Below are positions 3,735 to 19,634 of a stretch of 20,394 nt of DNA, one piece after another; the first letter of the stretch is position 1; every line of letters begins with the position of its first letter. A model generated the notes under the pieces. The model searched no databases. It saw nothing but the letters and a program-made list of their open reading frames with translations, and was not told where the DNA came from. The stretch is from positions 1 through 20,394 of IMG/VR virus record IMGVR_UViG_3300030109_000528; one strand, written 5' to 3'. A program made the position numbers and the translations under genes. This stretch comes from a virus.

Positions 3735-4025
3735 CTAGGAAACAGATACCGTAACGGTGCCCACGGCACTCGTTGCTGACAGGCTTCCACTAAACACTTC
3801 TGTTTTACCAACTACTTTTAAAAAGCCACCATCTGCAATGTAAATGTCACCCTGTTGAAGCAAGTTGTTGTTCCCATCCGTGGGCACTTCTTGAAAGTTT
3901 AATTGCGGGTTTTGTGCCTGCCTTAAAAATATCTCTAACGCTCTAACTAAATCTGTTAAATACTGAGCATCTACCTGTTGAGGCGGGGTGGGTAGCCTTG
4001 GAAAAGGCGTTACGTTTGTAGCCAT
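3735..4025 (-). CDS. Small structural-module protein of unknown function, 96 aa
   Basis: This short protein has a Pro-rich N-terminus (PFPRLPTPPQQ), one amphipathic helix (about residues 20-38), then NLLQQGDIYIADGGFLKVV (55-73), which looks like a small beta unit, and a Ser/Thr/Val tail. There is no signal peptide or membrane segment. The ATG at 4025 overlaps the TAA of the large gp10-like gene as TAATG, so the two are probably translated together. I recall similar small proteins beside the gp10-like tail gene in marine phages, but with no assigned role. A minor virion or assembly component is the best guess from location. Confidence 0.72.
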   Translation of the reverse strand: MATNVTPFPRLPTPPQQVDAQYLTDLVRALEIFLRQAQNPQLNFQEVPTDGNNNLLQQGDIYIADGGFLKVVGKTEVFSGSLSATSAVGTVTVSVS

Positions 4026-5911
4026 TATCGCCGCCCATCCTGCCTAATATTTACACGAGGACTACCAAGACGCCAACGAACACCTAAAGCAGAACAATCT
4101 ACCTTTAAAGAAAAGGCCCTGCCTCGCAGTCTAACGTCCGCTTTTTGGGTGAATTGTTCAAAAGGAACGGTAGTGGAGGTGGCACTACGATCTATCTTAG
4201 CCAACTCTGATTGAAGGTAATTACCCCCCGGAAAATTATTAGATTGTAAGGTTACATTCACGGTTGGGTCTGCGTTTGTAGAGCCGTTAAAAGTAAAATC
4301 GGGTATAATCCTACTAATAAAAGTAAATTGATCCCCGTCTCCCATATCAATCGGGCTGGACTCTATTGTAGAGGTCATAATAGATCCGTCGTCCGTGTAC
4401 CCCGACTCATGGTTGTACAAATAATTGCCTTCTGAACCTATGGGAAAAGTGCGGATTCCTCTATCTAAAAAAGCTGACCGCCCTAAGTTTCCATAATACC
4501 ACGTGTTTTCTGCATAATTAAAAATAACGTAACGGTCGTTCTCGCCTGTACCACCGTTGCCAAGTGAATTTGTTTCGGAACAATAGAACCAGATTACTTC
4601 ACTAAATTCAGAAATTACAGCAGCGTAAACTTTATCTGCTTGGTCATAATCGAAATCAAAGAACACACGCTCTTTTACTGTGCAAGGCATCTGTTGAGTT
4701 TTACCGTCGTATAGGTAGAAGTTCTGCCTACCCATCCAGAATACGGCATCTTCTATTGCGATAGCCGCATTAGGACCCATAATGGTGGTATTAGAAGCTA
4801 GAGGCTGAATACCAAACGTAAAAGGTGATCCAATAAATTGCATAGAATGCACAGAGCTATCTGTGAAGATTACAATCTCACGTTTAGTTTCAATGGCTTT
4901 TACAAACTCAGAACCAGAGCCTATACGCAAGTCCCCTGCTGTATTAGTCGCTTTAGGGTTCCAATCAGTTAAAGACTCTTGATCAGAAAACCGTATGAGC
5001 AAAGGATCTTGTGTTGTGCCTCCTACTGGGTTTGTGCCAAACGCAATTACATGACGATCAACATCTGAAACCATAATTTGTTTTGCAATAACAGGTGTTT
5101 CATCCGCACCTGACACGGTGCCTATTTCTACCGCACGAGCAGTGACTCCATCACTTTTGTCCCAATAAAATATTGAGCCATCCCTAGCATTGATTAACAA
5201 GTCCTCGCCAAAGTTATCTTGGCTCCAGACTCTAAGAGATGTTGTAACACTAATTGCGGCTCCAGAGCCCCATGTACCTCTGCCCCAAGTTCCTGCACCC
5301 CAACCGTTGCCACCGACACCCGTATTAAGGCCAGCATTAATCTGATACGCCCCATCAACCCCTGCGCCACCATTACCACTATCACTGGCATTTGCTGTTA
5401 CGGTTGCACCGGTAGTATCTTTAGCTACAAAAGTATAACTATTAAGGTTAGGGACAGAGGCTATTTCATACTCTTGGTTTAAGACTGCCGCTGTTATAAG
5501 ACCACCTAAAGATACCGCGCCAGATAAAGTAACAAAATCCCCCTGCACCGCGCCATGACTAGAGTCTGTCGCAGTAATTACAGAAGAACCATCGGTCGCA
5601 GCAAACGTAATGCCGTTAGTGGTAGTAGCTCTTATGGGAGTAATATCATTAAACGCTTGGCCTTGCTCAATATAGTATTTAGACTCTGTACCAACCCCAA
5701 GAAAATCAGAGCCATCAAGAGCTACCCAGTTAAACAAACCTCTGGCCGTACCTATATAAGTATTTTGTGAATACTTTTCCCAACCGCCAATAACTTCAGG
5801 GTAGCCAAGACGAAAACGCACCTTATCACAATCAACCCAACCGCCTTCGTTTGAGTACGATGTTACGTCACGGTTGATTCCGGGTTTGAACTGTAACTTG
5901 GTTAAAGGCAC
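4025..5911 (-). CDS. P22 gp10-like tail hub/accessory protein, 628 aa
   Basis: The N-terminus carries GINRDVTSYSNEGGW.DCDKVRFR.GYPE.IGGW (residues 11-44), the hallmark of a widespread phage tail family usually compared with P22 gp10, the tail accessory factor. The body has the regularly spaced beta-strand and aromatic pattern expected of a propeller-like fold (e.g. FTDSSVHSMQF, AVFWMGRQNFYLYDG, YVIFNYAENTWYYG). Residues about 95-195 look like an inserted Ser/Thr/Gly-rich beta domain, followed by Trp-Gly repeats (GNGWGAGTWGRGTWGSG, 201-217). The start is GTG: bases 5911-5909 read GTG with AAGGGG six bases upstream, and no better ATG fits. The protein probably plugs or extends the neck and short tail and supports the fibres. 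The fold call rests on motif memory. Confidence 0.85.
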   Translation of the reverse strand: MPLTKLQFKPGINRDVTSYSNEGGWVDCDKVRFRLGYPEVIGGWEKYSQNTYIGTARGLFNWVALDGSDFLGVGTESKYYIEQGQAFNDITPIRATTTNGITFAATDGSSVITATDSSHGAVQGDFVTLSGAVSLGGLITAAVLNQEYEIASVPNLNSYTFVAKDTTGATVTANASDSGNGGAGVDGAYQINAGLNTGVGGNGWGAGTWGRGTWGSGAAISVTTSLRVWSQDNFGEDLLINARDGSIFYWDKSDGVTARAVEIGTVSGADETPVIAKQIMVSDVDRHVIAFGTNPVGGTTQDPLLIRFSDQESLTDWNPKATNTAGDLRIGSGSEFVKAIETKREIVIFTDSSVHSMQFIGSPFTFGIQPLASNTTIMGPNAAIAIEDAVFWMGRQNFYLYDGKTQQMPCTVKERVFFDFDYDQADKVYAAVISEFSEVIWFYCSETNSLGNGGTGENDRYVIFNYAENTWYYGNLGRSAFLDRGIRTFPIGSEGNYLYNHESGYTDDGSIMTSTIESSPIDMGDGDQFTFISRIIPDFTFNGSTNADPTVNVTLQSNNFPGGNYLQSELAKIDRSATSTTVPFEQFTQKADVRLRGRAFSLKVDCSALGVRWRLGSPRVNIRQDGRR

Positions 5912-11338: not shown

Positions 11339-13069
11339 TTACCTTCTCGCTCCCACCTGAAATTCTAATTGAAACCCTTTTAGGGTATAAGGGGCTGTAG
11401 CATTTGCCCCATCTTCTACTCGCAGTGCCACTGCAAATCCAGAACCCTCTACTGCTTTACGAACAATAGGTTGTGAAGGTCCACCATACACTGCACTGCC
11501 GTAAACCGACGTGCCGTACAAACCTGCAACATTCGTACTATCTAGCGGGTACGCAGCAGGTCTTGTAGAAGTGTTTGATTCATAGTCATACCGCACAAAT
11601 AAGTCAGCGTCGATAGTTGATTCCGGTGCGTAGTTGATGTTTACACGTTGCATATGTTTGCGAACACCGGGGTCACCCATGTTTAAGTCTGGGCTTCTAT
11701 ACTTTGCACTTATTAAAGTACCATCGAATGTGTTGCCTTTTTCCTGCCTGTAGATGTACCCATCAAAACCCCCATGTACAACAATCACATCTCCAGACTC
11801 TAGCACTGTGTCAGCACAAGCAGGGCGAATACCCTTCATTGTAGAAAATTCAAACGCTTGCCCCTTCATAACAGCAATGGCACCTATTGTTGCAGTCTGG
11901 GTGCCCGTTGCTTTTGAAAAGAATATCCTGTATTGCGTCTTATCTGGTATAACCAAAGAAACGAACGCATCGGCATCGTCTAGGTTTTCTCTAAATAGTT
12001 GTTGCACGTTGGTGCTAATAGTGCCCAACTCAACGTCACCAATACGAGCAGTACCAGCAACTGTGCGGAGTCCGTCTGGACCCAAGAATACCAAGTCACC
12101 TGCAAATTCAAGAATACTAAAGCCGTTGATACAACCAATGTTTCTAGTGACAGGAACAATAGCAAAGTCACTCAAGCTGCTACCGCCCAACTTAAATATT
12201 CTGTTTTCACAAAAGATAAACAAGTTATCACGGAAAACCTTCAAACCAACGATAGTGTCGTCCACCTTGATGCTTCCGGCACCGTCACTGGCATTAAAGC
12301 CATCTTCGTCGAATGGCTCACTAAACACAACTTCCTGTGGTGTGCTTGACATACCGGAGTAGAACATATGGTTCTTAAAGGCAACTACGTGTTTTGCACC
12401 AGCTACAGAACTGTCACTTACGTCACTTGCTGTCAGCGCAGCGTTAAATATTGTAGGGGCATTAGCTTGGTCAACAACAATTATCTTATCGTTACCGTCA
12501 AAATTATACTTTTCAAAGTTGTATCGTGCAGCGTTAGTTCGTCCTGTATCCCTAGCTGTCCAAGTCTCTGATATAACATCTGTAACAGCTTGGTTAGCGG
12601 CTGTTGTACCGCCTGTTGCTCTTGTTACCCCTGTAAATGAGGTAGTTGTTTTACCTGTATACGTGAATATTTCAGAGTTTATCTGGATAGTTCCGCTGTT
12701 ACTAAACCCTGCAGTATTGTCTACAGTTATAGTGCCAGCACCTGTCATTGCTGTACCGGATGCAATTTTTATAGATAGCTCCGTTGAAGCAGAACTAAAT
12801 ATCTTCTCACCCCTAGCTGCTAACACAAAACTATTAAACTTGGTGCTTAGTAAAACAGCTTCTGATGAGATGGTTGTTTCAGGAACAATTTGAAGAACGT
12901 AGGGTCTAAAACCTAGCAGTCGTTTGTATCCACCACCCACGTCTGGCTCAAAGTTTTCCAACTCAAGTGCCTGACCCGGTTGCATGATAAAGGTGGACCT
13001 GTTTAGCACAAGACCCCCCTCACAGTTGAACGATAACGGGGACACACCCTGAAGTTCTAAATCAGGCAT
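11339..13069 (-). CDS. Second gp10-like / beta-propeller tail protein, 576 aa
   Basis: The protein opens with GGLVLNRSTFIMQPGQALELENFEPDVGGGYKRLLGFRPY, the start pattern of phage tail proteins that define a propeller-like tail hub, comparable with P22 gp10 by memory. The body has repeated short strands (VVAFKNHMFYSGM, GLKVFRDNLFIFCENRIFKLGG, LVFLGPDGLRTVAGT). Residues 105-168 look like an inserted domain: TITVDNTAGFSNSGTIQINS, then TYTGKTTTSFTGVTRATGGT, a module I recall in many marine phage fibre and tail proteins. It starts at the ATG at 13069, one base after the upstream TAA, and ends directly before the fibre gene. It is probably part of the neck or tail stack just below the connector. 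A role similar to the 628-residue protein is likely but not proven. Confidence 0.8.
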   Translation of the reverse strand: MPDLELQGVSPLSFNCEGGLVLNRSTFIMQPGQALELENFEPDVGGGYKRLLGFRPYVLQIVPETTISSEAVLLSTKFNSFVLAARGEKIFSSASTELSIKIASGTAMTGAGTITVDNTAGFSNSGTIQINSEIFTYTGKTTTSFTGVTRATGGTTAANQAVTDVISETWTARDTGRTNAARYNFEKYNFDGNDKIIVVDQANAPTIFNAALTASDVSDSSVAGAKHVVAFKNHMFYSGMSSTPQEVVFSEPFDEDGFNASDGAGSIKVDDTIVGLKVFRDNLFIFCENRIFKLGGSSLSDFAIVPVTRNIGCINGFSILEFAGDLVFLGPDGLRTVAGTARIGDVELGTISTNVQQLFRENLDDADAFVSLVIPDKTQYRIFFSKATGTQTATIGAIAVMKGQAFEFSTMKGIRPACADTVLESGDVIVVHGGFDGYIYRQEKGNTFDGTLISAKYRSPDLNMGDPGVRKHMQRVNINYAPESTIDADLFVRYDYESNTSTRPAAYPLDSTNVAGLYGTSVYGSAVYGGPSQPIVRKAVEGSGFAVALRVEDGANATAPYTLKGFQLEFQVGARR

Positions 13070-15131: not shown

Positions 15132-16211
15132 TTAAGCTGCAATGGAGGGGTTGGTTGCATTGGTCCCCATCCATTTACTCCACTCTGCATAATAGTGACG
15201 CATCCCAACCTCATCGTGTATTGTGTGGTTTTCGTGTCGTCCATGCAGGATGTTGCGAGGCTCCGTTCCCTGCCTCATGGTTGTTCCCTGTCCTGCTACG
15301 CCGATAAGGTCTTCGTGCAGGTTACGTCCGAACGGACCCCATATCGAATTGTGATGTTTGATACGGGTCTGTCTTTCTTCTGGTGTATCTTTCTTCAAGC
15401 CGTAGCCACGAAACTCAATAAGAACCTTGTCTGGACCTAACGGTGTTACGCTATCGCTACGGTATGCACTGCCACGTAAGTTAAAATTAAATCCGGGAAA
15501 CAAGTCTACCATATACCATTGGTTAGGTGGAAGGTTAGGGAAACTAAGTTCTCCTCTGTCTTCAAAACCAGCGTACTCTTCGTAGTTAACTGTAAAACTA
15601 CTGACGTTGACGTGTCCGTTATCAAATGCGATATTCTTTCTAGCAAAGTACTCATCATTAAACCCTGATACGCGATTAAAGTAGTGCATAAAGTCGTGGT
15701 AGAACTCAGAGTTTGTATCGTGCCACAACTTGTAGTTTGTATCGACTATTGCTTTGTGGTAATGAAAGACTTCCATCTCCTCAGTATCGATGGCGTCTGC
15801 AATACAATCAAACGCTCCAGCAGTCCACTCATCTACACTCATAGTTGGGTTAGTATTTAGAGTAGTCCAGACCATTCCCCCATGTTTTATTTCACATGGT
15901 AACTCTACCCACATACCAGAGTGGTAGGTCAGAGATAGGTCGTTACCTGCAGGGCGTAACACGTTGTCAGTCAAGAATGTCTTTACTTCATTATTTTCAA
16001 AACGTATAGCTACCACGTTGTGCAAGGCTATTTTTGTTGTTCTGAAATCCCCCAAGTGGGGTAGCTCGCTAGAGTGACACATAGGAACCCAGACTTTAGA
16101 AAATATATTTTCCTGTTCCTGTTCAAAAAGGCTGTGATCAGAATAGATCAATGAACTTATGTACTCTACTTTAGGCTGTTTAATCCAGTCCTTGTGATTA
16201 CGTGGCGGCAT
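15132..16211 (-). CDS. Ring-hydroxylating dioxygenase alpha-subunit-like protein lacking the Rieske cluster, 359 aa
   Basis: Overall order fits Rieske non-haem iron oxygenase large subunits. There is a Rieske-type lead-in (IFSKVWVPMCHSSELPHLGDF, 36-56), then GGMVWTTLN (111-119), TNYKL (158-162), the iron-site-like D165..N..E169.YH172...H176, and HED301 with Q308G near the end as a plausible third ligand. The usual C-x-H...C-x2-H cluster ligands are absent: the expected region reads DNVLRPAGNDLSLTYHSG (82-99) and is shortened. The second iron His is four residues after the first instead of the usual five. The frame extends to a TTG at 16247, but the ATG at 16211 overlaps the previous stop as TAATG and is preferred. 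It may be an oxygenase with altered electron delivery or a repurposed fold; the substrate cannot be told. Confidence 0.75.
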   Translation of the reverse strand: MPPRNHKDWIKQPKVEYISSLIYSDHSLFEQEQENIFSKVWVPMCHSSELPHLGDFRTTKIALHNVVAIRFENNEVKTFLTDNVLRPAGNDLSLTYHSGMWVELPCEIKHGGMVWTTLNTNPTMSVDEWTAGAFDCIADAIDTEEMEVFHYHKAIVDTNYKLWHDTNSEFYHDFMHYFNRVSGFNDEYFARKNIAFDNGHVNVSSFTVNYEEYAGFEDRGELSFPNLPPNQWYMVDLFPGFNFNLRGSAYRSDSVTPLGPDKVLIEFRGYGLKKDTPEERQTRIKHHNSIWGPFGRNLHEDLIGVAGQGTTMRQGTEPRNILHGRHENHTIHDEVGMRHYYAEWSKWMGTNATNPSIAA

Positions 16212-16680: not shown

Positions 16681-17166
16681 CTAAAATTCTCCCGCCTTCA
16701 TAGCGTCTGAAAGTATACGTGATCGTCGTCCTACCTGCCGTGCCCAACGAGAATCCATCATCTCAAGACTTGCAGCTTCAAAATTATTTTCATGTATTGC
16801 GTTCCACATGTTTTTAAATTTACACAGTCTTGGTACACCCATGTTAAACGCCATATCCATCAAGATCAATTGCCTGACTGCATCTAAGTCCTCAACACAT
16901 TTGTGAACAGCAACCAACTCCCGTTCAACTATAGCCATGTCGTTCATGGCAAGGTAACGAGCGTCAGCCTCTGTAATACCATGTTCGTATACTATATCCA
17001 TACTGGGTATGTCAAGGTAATCCAGTTCTTCTTTGCTAATACCACGATCTTTTAGGTTTCGCCCAATACCAATAGTTTCAATACCCAAGCTATCCTTATA
17101 GACGTTAAGAACCATACCTTCGTGTTCGATTAGTTTATCTAAGAAGTGAGACGAGTTATACTTCAT
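16681..17166 (-). CDS. Endolysin, T4-type lysozyme (GH24), 161 aa
   Basis: It cleaves the glycan strands of host peptidoglycan at lysis. LIEHEG (12-17), YKDSLGIETIGIG (23-35) and the spacing E16-9-D25-6-T31 reproduce the T4 lysozyme catalytic triad E11/D20/T26. The C-terminal half has MAFNMG and then SRWARQVGRRSRILSDAM, the matching second-lobe segments. The length (161) is close to T4 lysozyme (164). There is no signal peptide, so release should depend on a holin; two candidate membrane proteins lie immediately upstream. The ATG at 17166 overlaps the previous TGA as ATGA, and AGGAG lies 10 bases upstream. It is the clearest enzyme in the window. Confidence 0.95.
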   Translation of the reverse strand: MKYNSSHFLDKLIEHEGMVLNVYKDSLGIETIGIGRNLKDRGISKEELDYLDIPSMDIVYEHGITEADARYLAMNDMAIVERELVAVHKCVEDLDAVRQLILMDMAFNMGVPRLCKFKNMWNAIHENNFEAASLEMMDSRWARQVGRRSRILSDAMKAGEF

Positions 17167-17357
17167 ATACCAACGGCTCCTATTATCTTACAAGTATAGT
17201 CAACAGTTTTCCAAGAATCATCAGGGGGTATACTTTCGTGTATTGCTTTTATTTCCAAACACTCTGGCTCACCATCAAACCATTGAATTGTTTGGTTGTA
17301 GCATTCTCCGCTGGAAGTACAAGCTGTTAATACTAATGCCCAAATTATAGCTGTCAT
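17163..17357 (-). CDS. Possible small lipoprotein / exported protein in the lysis module, 64 aa
   Basis: The N-terminus MTAIIWALVLTAC ends in LTAC, which fits a lipobox with C13 as the lipid-modified residue, although the leader is very short and lacks a basic N-terminal residue. The mature part has three more Cys (C19, C33, C56) and a Trp/acidic-rich segment (IQWFDGEPECLEIKAIHESI). It overlaps both neighbours by ATGA, between a membrane protein and the endolysin. That position would suit an outer-membrane spanin-like protein, but no inner-membrane partner is evident and spanins are often Pro-rich, so the role is open. I recall similar small proteins with a 'TxQWF' core in marine phages. Confidence 0.75.
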   Translation of the reverse strand: MTAIIWALVLTACTSSGECYNQTIQWFDGEPECLEIKAIHESIPPDDSWKTVDYTCKIIGAVGI

Positions 17358-17608
17358 TTTATATTATCTTCTCTACTGTGAAGTCGTTTTGCTTGGGTCT
17401 GATGTGCGTTACCTTCATGATTCATCCATACCGCAAATGCACCTGTCATGGCCCCCGTGACTACACTCACTAGTGCCGCTTGTTGACTTGTCGGGTCGGG
17501 AAGAGTCATGAACCATTCCACTACTCTCCACGCTGACACCGACATCATTAACATCATTAAGCGCGGTAGTAACTTCCACGCCAGAACTCGTTCCATTACG
17601 CCTGTCAC
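17354..17608 (-). CDS. Two-helix membrane protein, holin-like candidate, 84 aa
   Basis: Two hydrophobic segments (about residues 10-33 and 43-62: LLPRLMMLMMSVSAWRVVEW, then AALVSVVTGAMTGAFAVWMN) are followed by a charged tail. The start is GTG at 17608, not ATG, with AAGGA six bases upstream. A different frame over the same DNA (17415-17663) is less convincing. The small size, two membrane helices and a place between a holin-like gene and the endolysin suggest a holin, antiholin or other lysis membrane protein. I recall the 'WFMTLPDPT..QAALVS' core from many marine phages without firm function. Confidence 0.82.
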   Translation of the reverse strand: MTGVMERVLAWKLLPRLMMLMMSVSAWRVVEWFMTLPDPTSQQAALVSVVTGAMTGAFAVWMNHEGNAHQTQAKRLHSREDNIK

Positions 17609-17668
17609 GATTTTTCCTTGCTTGCTCTTCTGTTGTTTGGTTGTACATATTCCACATCTGCACTGGGA

Positions 17669-18330: not shown

Positions 18331-18479
18331 TACTTTTTCCTAGCTGTCTGCGCTGCACGTTTGAAGTTGGCTTTGCTTGGCGCACCCCTACTTCCAGCTT
18401 TACGCATGGTTTCCCCACTGCCAGCTTTTATTCTGCGCTTTTTAGCAGCTATGTTGGCGTATAATCCGCGTCCAGCCAT
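18330..18479 (-). CDS. Very small basic protein, 49 aa
   Basis: The ATG at 18479 overlaps the TAA of the Lys-rich repeat protein, and the TAA at 18332-18330 overlaps the next ATG, so the gene fits its slot exactly (TAATG at both ends). The protein begins MAGRGLYANIAAKKRRIKAG, continues GSGETMRKAGSRGAPSKANF and ends in RKK; 15 of 49 residues are Lys or Arg. I recall the 'GLYANI..K..RI..GSGE.MR..G..GAP' pattern as a small conserved protein of T4-like cyanophages and other marine phages with no known function. Binding to DNA or RNA is plausible from charge alone. Confidence 0.85.
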   Translation of the reverse strand: MAGRGLYANIAAKKRRIKAGSGETMRKAGSRGAPSKANFKRAAQTARKK

Positions 18480-18970
18480 TAACGTTTTGCCTTACCGCCA
18501 CGAGCCATACCCTTAGACTTCATCATCTTGCCACCACGAGCCATACCTTTGGACTTTTTCATCATGGCTTTACCACCACGAGCCATGCCCTTAGATTTTT
18601 TCATCATGGTCTTGCCGCCCTTTGCATAACCTTTCGACTTCATTTTGCCGCCTTTAGCCATGCCTTTAGCTTTCTTCGTGGCTTTACCACCTTTAGCCAT
18701 AGCACCGACAAAACCTTGTTTCTTCTGTATGTCTGGGTTGCCGCCTTGTTTGGCTTTTCGTTGTACTTTTGCGCCACCAGTACGTTTAACAACTTCTTTT
18801 GCAAGTTTTCCCCTGCCATAAACTCCCGGTGCTTTATTCATTAAAGAATCTAGCTTTTTCTTTTTAGTTGCAGGAAGCATACTTCGTATTTCATTATATT
18901 CTTTTATCAAAGCCGGAGTAAGGGGCTTTTCATTTTTTATAGCGTTGTTAAGCTTTTCCATCAACGTCAT
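18479..18970 (-). CDS. Lys/Gly-rich repeat protein, histone-tail-like, 163 aa
   Basis: The frame runs to a TTG at 18997, but the ATG at 18970 has GGAG 7 bases upstream and is preferred; it overlaps the end of the upstream gene by 23 bases. Residues 1-45 are helical (LMEKLNNAIKNEKPLTPALI...ATKKKKLDSL). Residues 46-90 are basic linker. From about residue 91 to the end, tandem units of the form KSKGMARGGK(x)MMK repeat, with 23 Lys and 4 Arg in the last 72 residues. Such tails resemble histone H1 or AlgP-type tails and would bind DNA or RNA without sequence preference. It lies amid other basic small proteins, suggesting a shared role in DNA condensation, packaging or host takeover (inference). 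Confidence 0.8.
   Translation of the reverse strand: MTLMEKLNNAIKNEKPLTPALIKEYNEIRSMLPATKKKKLDSLMNKAPGVYGRGKLAKEVVKRTGGAKVQRKAKQGGNPDIQKKQGFVGAMAKGGKATKKAKGMAKGGKMKSKGYAKGGKTMMKKSKGMARGGKAMMKKSKGMARGGKMMKSKGMARGGKAKR
18482..18697 (-). repeat. Tandem repeats encoding KSKGMARGGK-type units
   Basis: The last 72 codons of the Lys-rich protein repeat a short unit that codes for (M)K(K)SKGMA(K/R)GGK, about 9-14 residues per unit. At DNA level (plus strand) blocks such as ccaccacgagccat and gactttttcatcatgg recur. The last units are nearly identical while the earlier ones have drifted, which suggests growth by slippage or unequal exchange at the 3' end. Copy number probably varies among relatives. 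Confidence 0.8.
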
Positions 18971-19634
18971 CGTCTGTCTCCGCATATAGATTATCAAATA
19001 CCCGTGCTGTATCTTCTACATAGTTCGGGTCTTGTTTAGAATGGTGAACCCACTGACTAGGAGTGAAGTCCGGTGGGCCATCGCCCGTTACAAACCAAGC
19101 AGGGTTCGTTACCCTTACTCTATTATTGGGCAGTGCAACTATGTTGCCTGTCCACTCACCAGCATCCATCAATTCTAGCACGTGGCTTTGTTTGTGTTGG
19201 GCTGGGTCGTCTGCTACTTCGGTATCTGTGTAGTCAATTGTGAAGTAGTATTTTGCTGGGTAGAACTCTCCGTCTATCTTAGCCAACCACGGGCAGGGAG
19301 TAGCTCTATTCAAAACAAACACCGAATGGTGGTGTGATTGACAATCCCACGGTTGAGCCAAGTAGGTTGGCATTGGTGTAGGCCACTCTTCAAAGGGTGT
19401 ATCACCTACAAGGGCTGTCAAGGGCATTCGTGCCCACATAGCCCCACCGTGTACGTTTTCTTCTTCATCGTATCCGGTAAACATTACTTGGAATGATAGT
19501 GTCTTCATGGGCAGTGTGGTAACAGCTATTACCATTGCATGAAGAAACTCACCTTGATACCGATCAAAATTGGTGGTATATTCTCTGCGTACCCAAGCTT
19601 TGAAGTATGGTACGTTACTTGTAATATAATTCAT
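18948..19634 (-). CDS. Conserved phage protein of unknown function, 228 aa
   Basis: This soluble protein is rich in aromatic residues, with beta-type patterns: NFDRYQGEFLHAMVIAVTTL (22-41), then AMWARMPLTALVGDTPFEEW (65-84), QPWDCQSHHHSVFVLNRA (94-111) and CPWLAKIDGEFYPAKYYF (114-131). It ends in an acidic tail (AETDDDVDGKA). The His cluster SHHHS and nearby Cys/Asp could bind a metal, but I know of no proof. I recall this as a strongly conserved family in marine phages, without a role. The ATG at 19634 has GGAG 7 bases upstream. It stands out as the only acidic, globular protein among the basic ones. Confidence 0.85.
   Translation of the reverse strand: MNYITSNVPYFKAWVRREYTTNFDRYQGEFLHAMVIAVTTLPMKTLSFQVMFTGYDEEENVHGGAMWARMPLTALVGDTPFEEWPTPMPTYLAQPWDCQSHHHSVFVLNRATPCPWLAKIDGEFYPAKYYFTIDYTDTEVADDPAQHKQSHVLELMDAGEWTGNIVALPNNRVRVTNPAWFVTGDGPPDFTPSQWVHHSKQDPNYVEDTARVFDNLYAETDDDVDGKA

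Follow-up and report, generated by a model that had tools for sequence, protein, structure and literature searches.

In ordinary Rieske oxygenases, electrons leave the Rieske cluster of one alpha subunit, cross the interface by way of a bridging acidic residue and reach the mononuclear iron in the neighbouring alpha subunit. In the carnitine monooxygenase CntA, the two centres lie 44 A apart within a chain and about 12 A apart across the interface; a bridging glutamate links them, and its mutation abolishes activity (PMC7948474). The 7-methylxanthine N7-demethylase NdmCDE has a Rieske-less oxygenase and a Rieske domain fused to its reductase (PMC4408171), and it is a working precedent for split cofactors. 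Since electrons cross between neighbouring subunits, an alpha subunit lacking a Rieske cluster can work beside a Rieske-bearing one, and the placement of the two cofactors on two chains is thus mechanistically permitted.

Few ocean phages are as abundant as those of the HMO-2011 type, whose 'MsmA' is cited as a way in which viruses contribute to sulfur cycling. This AMG reading of phage MsmA has been repeated in a review (PMC4928673). Genuine MsmA has a 26-residue spacer, and long-spacer MsmA is a marker of MSA degraders; the predicted MsmA of HMO-2011 and many GOS and virome sequences lack CXH-Xn-CXXH, as does one of the two proteins resembling MsmA in the host, IMCC1322 (Henriques and De Marco, PMC4433239). 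The absence of the Rieske motif in HMO-2011 and one IMCC1322 protein is therefore published and not new in itself. In the accessible literature, which treats the gp61-type protein of HMO-2011 as an MsmA AMG, we found no description of a Rieske-bearing partner (alphaR), of its absence from phages or of repeated Rieske loss.

In this study, a Rieske-less phage protein of this family was compared with its viral and bacterial relatives. We estimate a probability of about 0.7 that methanesulfonate monooxygenase is split here, with this form (alphaFe) as its iron-bearing alpha subunit, which phages carry as an AMG and which receives electrons from a Rieske-bearing alpha subunit of the host.

Domain content and selection of the phage protein

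The window, which is the whole stretch of DNA analysed, comprises the 20,394 nucleotides of IMG/VR record IMGVR_UViG_3300030109_000528. The alphaFe gene, recognized by its open reading frame, PF00848 match, identity to gp61 and Rieske-oxygenase fold, lies on the minus strand at 16211..15132 (ATG at 16211, stop at 15132) and encodes 359 residues; stops occur throughout the plus strand of 15132-16211. Its neighbours are phage genes, with an endolysin upstream (16681..17166, minus strand; phrog_15410 and phrog_7 endolysin), outside the proposed system, and structural genes downstream. The best relative of the structural gene at 11339-13069 is in HMO-2011 (56%), and those of the gene at 4025-5911 are in other marine phages. 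Because the structural genes differ in their nearest relatives, the window phage appears to be a mosaic relative of the HMO-2011 group, and its assignment to the plain HMO-2011 type was dropped. Two small overlapping ORFs in different frames near the endolysin (17354-17663, minus strand), one of them membrane-like, suggest a lysis cassette. A small basic protein with repeated KSKGMARGGK units is encoded next to the structural genes (18479-18997, minus strand).

The nearest annotated relative of the window protein is gp61 of HMO-2011 (73% identity over 99% of the length), annotated 'methanesulfonate monooxygenase'. Pfam matched the catalytic domain PF00848 above the cut-off (E 4e-7), and the Rieske [2Fe-2S] domain PF00355 gave no match up to E 10. 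The sequence-only reading had described a dioxygenase-like protein with its iron site retained and its Rieske cluster lost. The loss was borne out: no C-x-H...C-x2-H pair occurs anywhere in the 359 residues, and residues 81-101 (15909..15971, minus strand), aligned to CPHRG-X26-CMFHAW of canonical MsmA, read TDNVLRPAGNDLSLTYHSGMW in place of the Rieske loops. Both parts of the MsmA-type iron-site motif, WHDTN(S/C)EFYHD..H and RNLHED, are present. The first, WHDTNSEFYHDFMH (residues 163-176; 15684..15725, minus strand), is the same in canonical MsmA and bears the bridging E169 and the ligands H172 and H176; the second (residues 296-301; 15309..15326, minus strand) provides the third ligand, D301, and is kept in viral proteins and deleted in alphaR. 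D165, E169, H172, H176 and D301 all stand where they had been placed from the letters alone. As for the family, an oxygenase alpha subunit was correctly recognized, but the sequence assigns it to the large subunit of methanesulfonate monooxygenase (MsmA), with the iron site intact and the Rieske cluster missing, and not to the naphthalene-type dioxygenases.

Full-length MsmA (about 415 aa) was found by a genome scan in Filomicrobium, Hyphomicrobium, Methylobacterium and gammaproteobacterial genomes, almost always with CXH-X26-CXXH; identity was 50-59% in the genome scan and 55-65% in alignment A2. The short His-x3-His spacing pointed out earlier is seen in the window protein, but genuine MsmA with an intact Rieske cluster has it too. 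It is a trait of the MsmA family, and a phage-specific spacing was rejected.

The expected fold was supported by an AlphaFold2 model built with 70 diverse sequences (pLDDT 86.8, pTM 0.88), for which Foldseek returned Rieske-oxygenase alpha subunits from the PDB, the best being 7q05_D (TPADO) with E 8e-20. At the sequence level, oxygenase alpha subunits of the PDB matched mostly the N-terminal lead-in (residues 18-90 approximately). A library of predicted viral protein structures gave only two significant matches, both partial and unnamed.

Viral homologues were collected by a match to any one of six short peptides, EFYHDFMH among them, giving at least 271 loci and at least 176 distinct proteins, both totals being lower bounds. 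The Rieske motif CXH-X26-CXXH was absent from 271 of the 271 viral loci listed (176 distinct proteins), so that a local deletion in a single copy, which would have refuted the sequence-only reading, was rejected. EFYHD(F/Y)(M/L)H and RNLHED were kept in all 176 distinct viral proteins listed, with variation at two non-ligand positions; the collection somewhat favours conservation of the EFYHD motif, while copies with an altered motif were still reachable through the other five peptides. Two of the loci counted (L097 and L098) look like phage by gene content; these alphaFe-bearing contigs are filed under bacterial MAGs (Hellea and Rickettsiales).

Among pairs of viral copies with dS below 1.5, the median pairwise dN/dS was 0.026 for the catalytic residues 130-348 and 0.54 for the Rieske remnant at residues 58-110. 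The iron-site domain of viral alphaFe is thus under extreme purifying selection and the Rieske remnant is not, a pattern indicating that selection preserves an enzyme in the catalytic half and lets the former Rieske half drift. These data refute a degenerate relic on its way to a pseudogene. The missing cofactor domain would fit such decay, but the open frames, the hundreds of copies in several phage lineages and the strong selection leave it a negligible chance. A role of the phage protein as a modulator without catalytic activity, or as a dominant-negative subunit that blocks or redirects host trimers, is also very unlikely. Phages carry no other msm part, as a modulator would predict; however, a blocker needs neither iron ligands nor a bridging glutamate, which are invariant in the 176 viral proteins listed, the median dN/dS of the catalytic domain is 0.026, and SAR116 bacteria retain an alphaFe of their own in the operon. 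Of the three roles envisaged in the sequence-only reading, a non-redox protein and a binding protein fit badly because of this low dN/dS and the invariant ligands, and an enzyme with another electron route fits best.

A complementary paralogue in SAR116 operons

SAR116 chromosomes carry Rieske-less alphaFe copies that are 75-79% identical to the phage protein. The msm operon there runs from a divergent MsmE-like binding protein through an alphaR-reductase fusion, the beta subunit, a ferredoxin and an ORF termed ORFx to alphaFe, followed by LysR, a TauE sulfite exporter and C1-folate genes. In canonical operons, msmA holds the position that alphaR takes here. In the fusion (about 800 aa), residues 1-375 are an MsmA whose X26 Rieske domain is intact and whose iron site is deleted, and the remainder is an FAD/NAD ferredoxin reductase. 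The Pfam domains are complementary: PF00848 without PF00355 in alphaFe, PF00355 and reductase without PF00848 in alphaR, and both oxygenase domains in canonical MsmA. CXH-X26-CXXH was kept and the EFYH and RNLHED element lost in 15 of 15 alphaR ORFs, two of which are one gene in two loci. Identity in the Rieske region was 97% among alphaR sequences and 30% among alphaFe sequences, while in the iron region it was 26% and 91%, respectively. The alternative electron route can be given a name, since the hosts have a paralogue that complements alphaFe, bearing only the Rieske part and fused to a reductase. In two loci (L096:4911-7484 and L188:7157-9553) more of the dead catalytic region of alphaR is left than in others, and these copies may be decay intermediates.

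AlphaR and alphaFe were found in the identical 12 of 136 genomes of the SAR116 order and neither occurred alone, counts which are not independent because the genomes are related and the genes syntenic. A thirteenth genome has canonical MsmA. Both genes are present in a closed 2.75-Mb genome that is probably IMCC1322, the host of HMO-2011. In one genome of the order, two copies of the split system were seen (L190, on G012:C16, and G012:C45), each with a gap of about 12 kb between alphaR and alphaFe.

A Rieske ferredoxin (MsmC) is encoded in every intact split operon. ORFx, a conserved protein of about 280 aa encoded in almost every split operon between the ferredoxin and alphaFe (L084:8953-9795, L188:15555-16385), has no Pfam or NCBIfam match; by analogy with NdmE of NdmCDE, it could be an assembly factor.

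The substrate is suggested to be methanesulfonate by the family and the operon context. It is unlikely that the same split mechanism serves another small sulfonate or a related compound. Such a substrate might be read from the DMSO-reductase-like dmsABC genes that interrupt the operon in one genome (L188:10912-15502, in the probable IMCC1322 genome, between the ferredoxin and ORFx), but long-spacer MsmA marks MSA degraders (PMC4433239), and the operon holds the MsmE-like binding protein, TauE and C1-folate genes.

Distribution in phages and repeated loss of the Rieske part

Hundreds of viral contigs carry alphaFe. The loci listed belong to several contig types, 80 with HMO-2011 hallmarks, 34 with structural genes of the window type and 25 with a T4-like ribonucleotide reductase. 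AlphaR was not found in searches of viral contigs, and the corresponding search of phage records returned gp61 itself in HMO-2011 only. The codon pattern for CMFHAWQFDM had no match in viral contigs, while the positive control matched 51 of 80 bacterial loci. An ORF motif scan of viral sequences gave 32 matches, which appear to be chance occurrences and no Rieske domains. A Rieske partner elsewhere on the phage genomes was thus not found by any of these searches.

Sixteen isolates have an HMO-2011-type terminase, and among them alphaFe occurs in the SAR116 phage only, being absent from 11 Roseobacter and 4 Pelagibacter phages. With one positive, this restriction is only suggestive; if true, the need for a Rieske partner would explain it.

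In a tree built without the Rieske region, the viral protein of locus L335 falls inside gammaproteobacterial MsmA. Its iron-site sequence is nearly identical to those of L145 and L161, but the Rieske segment has been cut out at the same position; L352 has the same excised form. L323 and L359 branch separately. A single origin of all Rieske-less forms was rejected (AU p 8e-5), and the Rieske part has thus been lost in phages at least two times independently. In the gammaproteobacterial set, each of 11 sampled genomes has a single canonical MsmA, and none has a Rieske-less copy. Another phage alphaFe of gammaproteobacterial MsmA descent was seen at L332:5001-6128, where the sampled related bacteria have canonical MsmA only.

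Because the sampled bacterial relatives of the L335 type hold canonical MsmA only, alphaR is probably not the electron donor for all phages, and on this branch the phage subunit would therefore need to enter mixed trimers with canonical alpha. These phages, of a lineage whose bacterial relatives lack alphaR, also speak for an alternative in which alphaR is not the donor and alphaFe either takes its electrons directly from the host MsmC, docked in the vacated Rieske site, or uses a peroxide shunt. Peroxide shunts are known in Rieske oxygenases, and the ferredoxin is present in every intact operon. We nevertheless consider this route improbable, as it would give no function to the X26 Rieske domain that alphaR conserves at 97% identity beside a dead catalytic domain, and E169 is kept in every viral copy listed.

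As for the direction of transfer, the AU test favoured neither phage-to-host nor host-to-phage (p 0.23), and it may be that the phage iron half came first and drove decay of the host iron site. We lean towards a wider form of the split-enzyme reading, in which each SAR116 alpha paralogue has lost the cofactor that the other retains, and the iron half of MsmA is carried by several unrelated phage lineages, partly after independent losses, as an AMG that works only when plugged into the electron chain of the host.

Proposed electron route and known systems

E169 of the window protein is the aligned equivalent of the bridging glutamate of CntA. Under the split-enzyme reading, alphaR would be the neighbouring subunit supplied by the SAR116 host, beside the beta subunit and the Rieske ferredoxin. 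Electrons would pass from NADH to the FAD domain of alphaR, to the ferredoxin and to the Rieske cluster of alphaR, and from there through E169 to the iron at H172, H176 and D301 of host or phage alphaFe, where methanesulfonate would be attacked and formaldehyde and sulfite released. During infection, the phage copy would add or replace catalytic sites and borrow all other parts from the host; in hosts with canonical MsmA, it would join mixed trimers. The phage may gain formaldehyde for C1 metabolism, reducing power or sulfite. Against this model, a mix of alphaR and alphaFe in a head-to-tail alpha3 (C3) ring cannot make all junctions productive.

If phage MsmA amounts to half an enzyme, its importance is confined to cells that provide the Rieske partner. 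The system would also let electron transfer between subunits be studied in a natural experiment, in which evolution separated the two cofactors of one enzyme onto two chains.

Gp61 of HMO-2011 and the Rieske-less 'MsmA' of IMCC1322 belong to the same family as the window protein and share its Rieske absence. Canonical MsmA has the identical iron-site motif and the same PF00848 catalytic domain, whereas the window protein has no Rieske cluster and is about 50-60 residues shorter. CntA and the alpha subunits of naphthalene and biphenyl dioxygenases share the fold and the E/D-H-H-D site; unlike the window protein, they have both cofactors on one chain and H-x4-H spacing. The SAR116 operons are NdmCDE-like in architecture, with a Rieske-less oxygenase and a Rieske domain on the reductase chain. 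Unlike in NdmCDE, the Rieske partner is a paralogous alpha without an iron site, fused to an FAD reductase, and the iron half is carried by phages. Judged from these architectures, the SAR116 and phage case is probably a variant of the split Rieske oxygenases that we did not find described in searchable papers.
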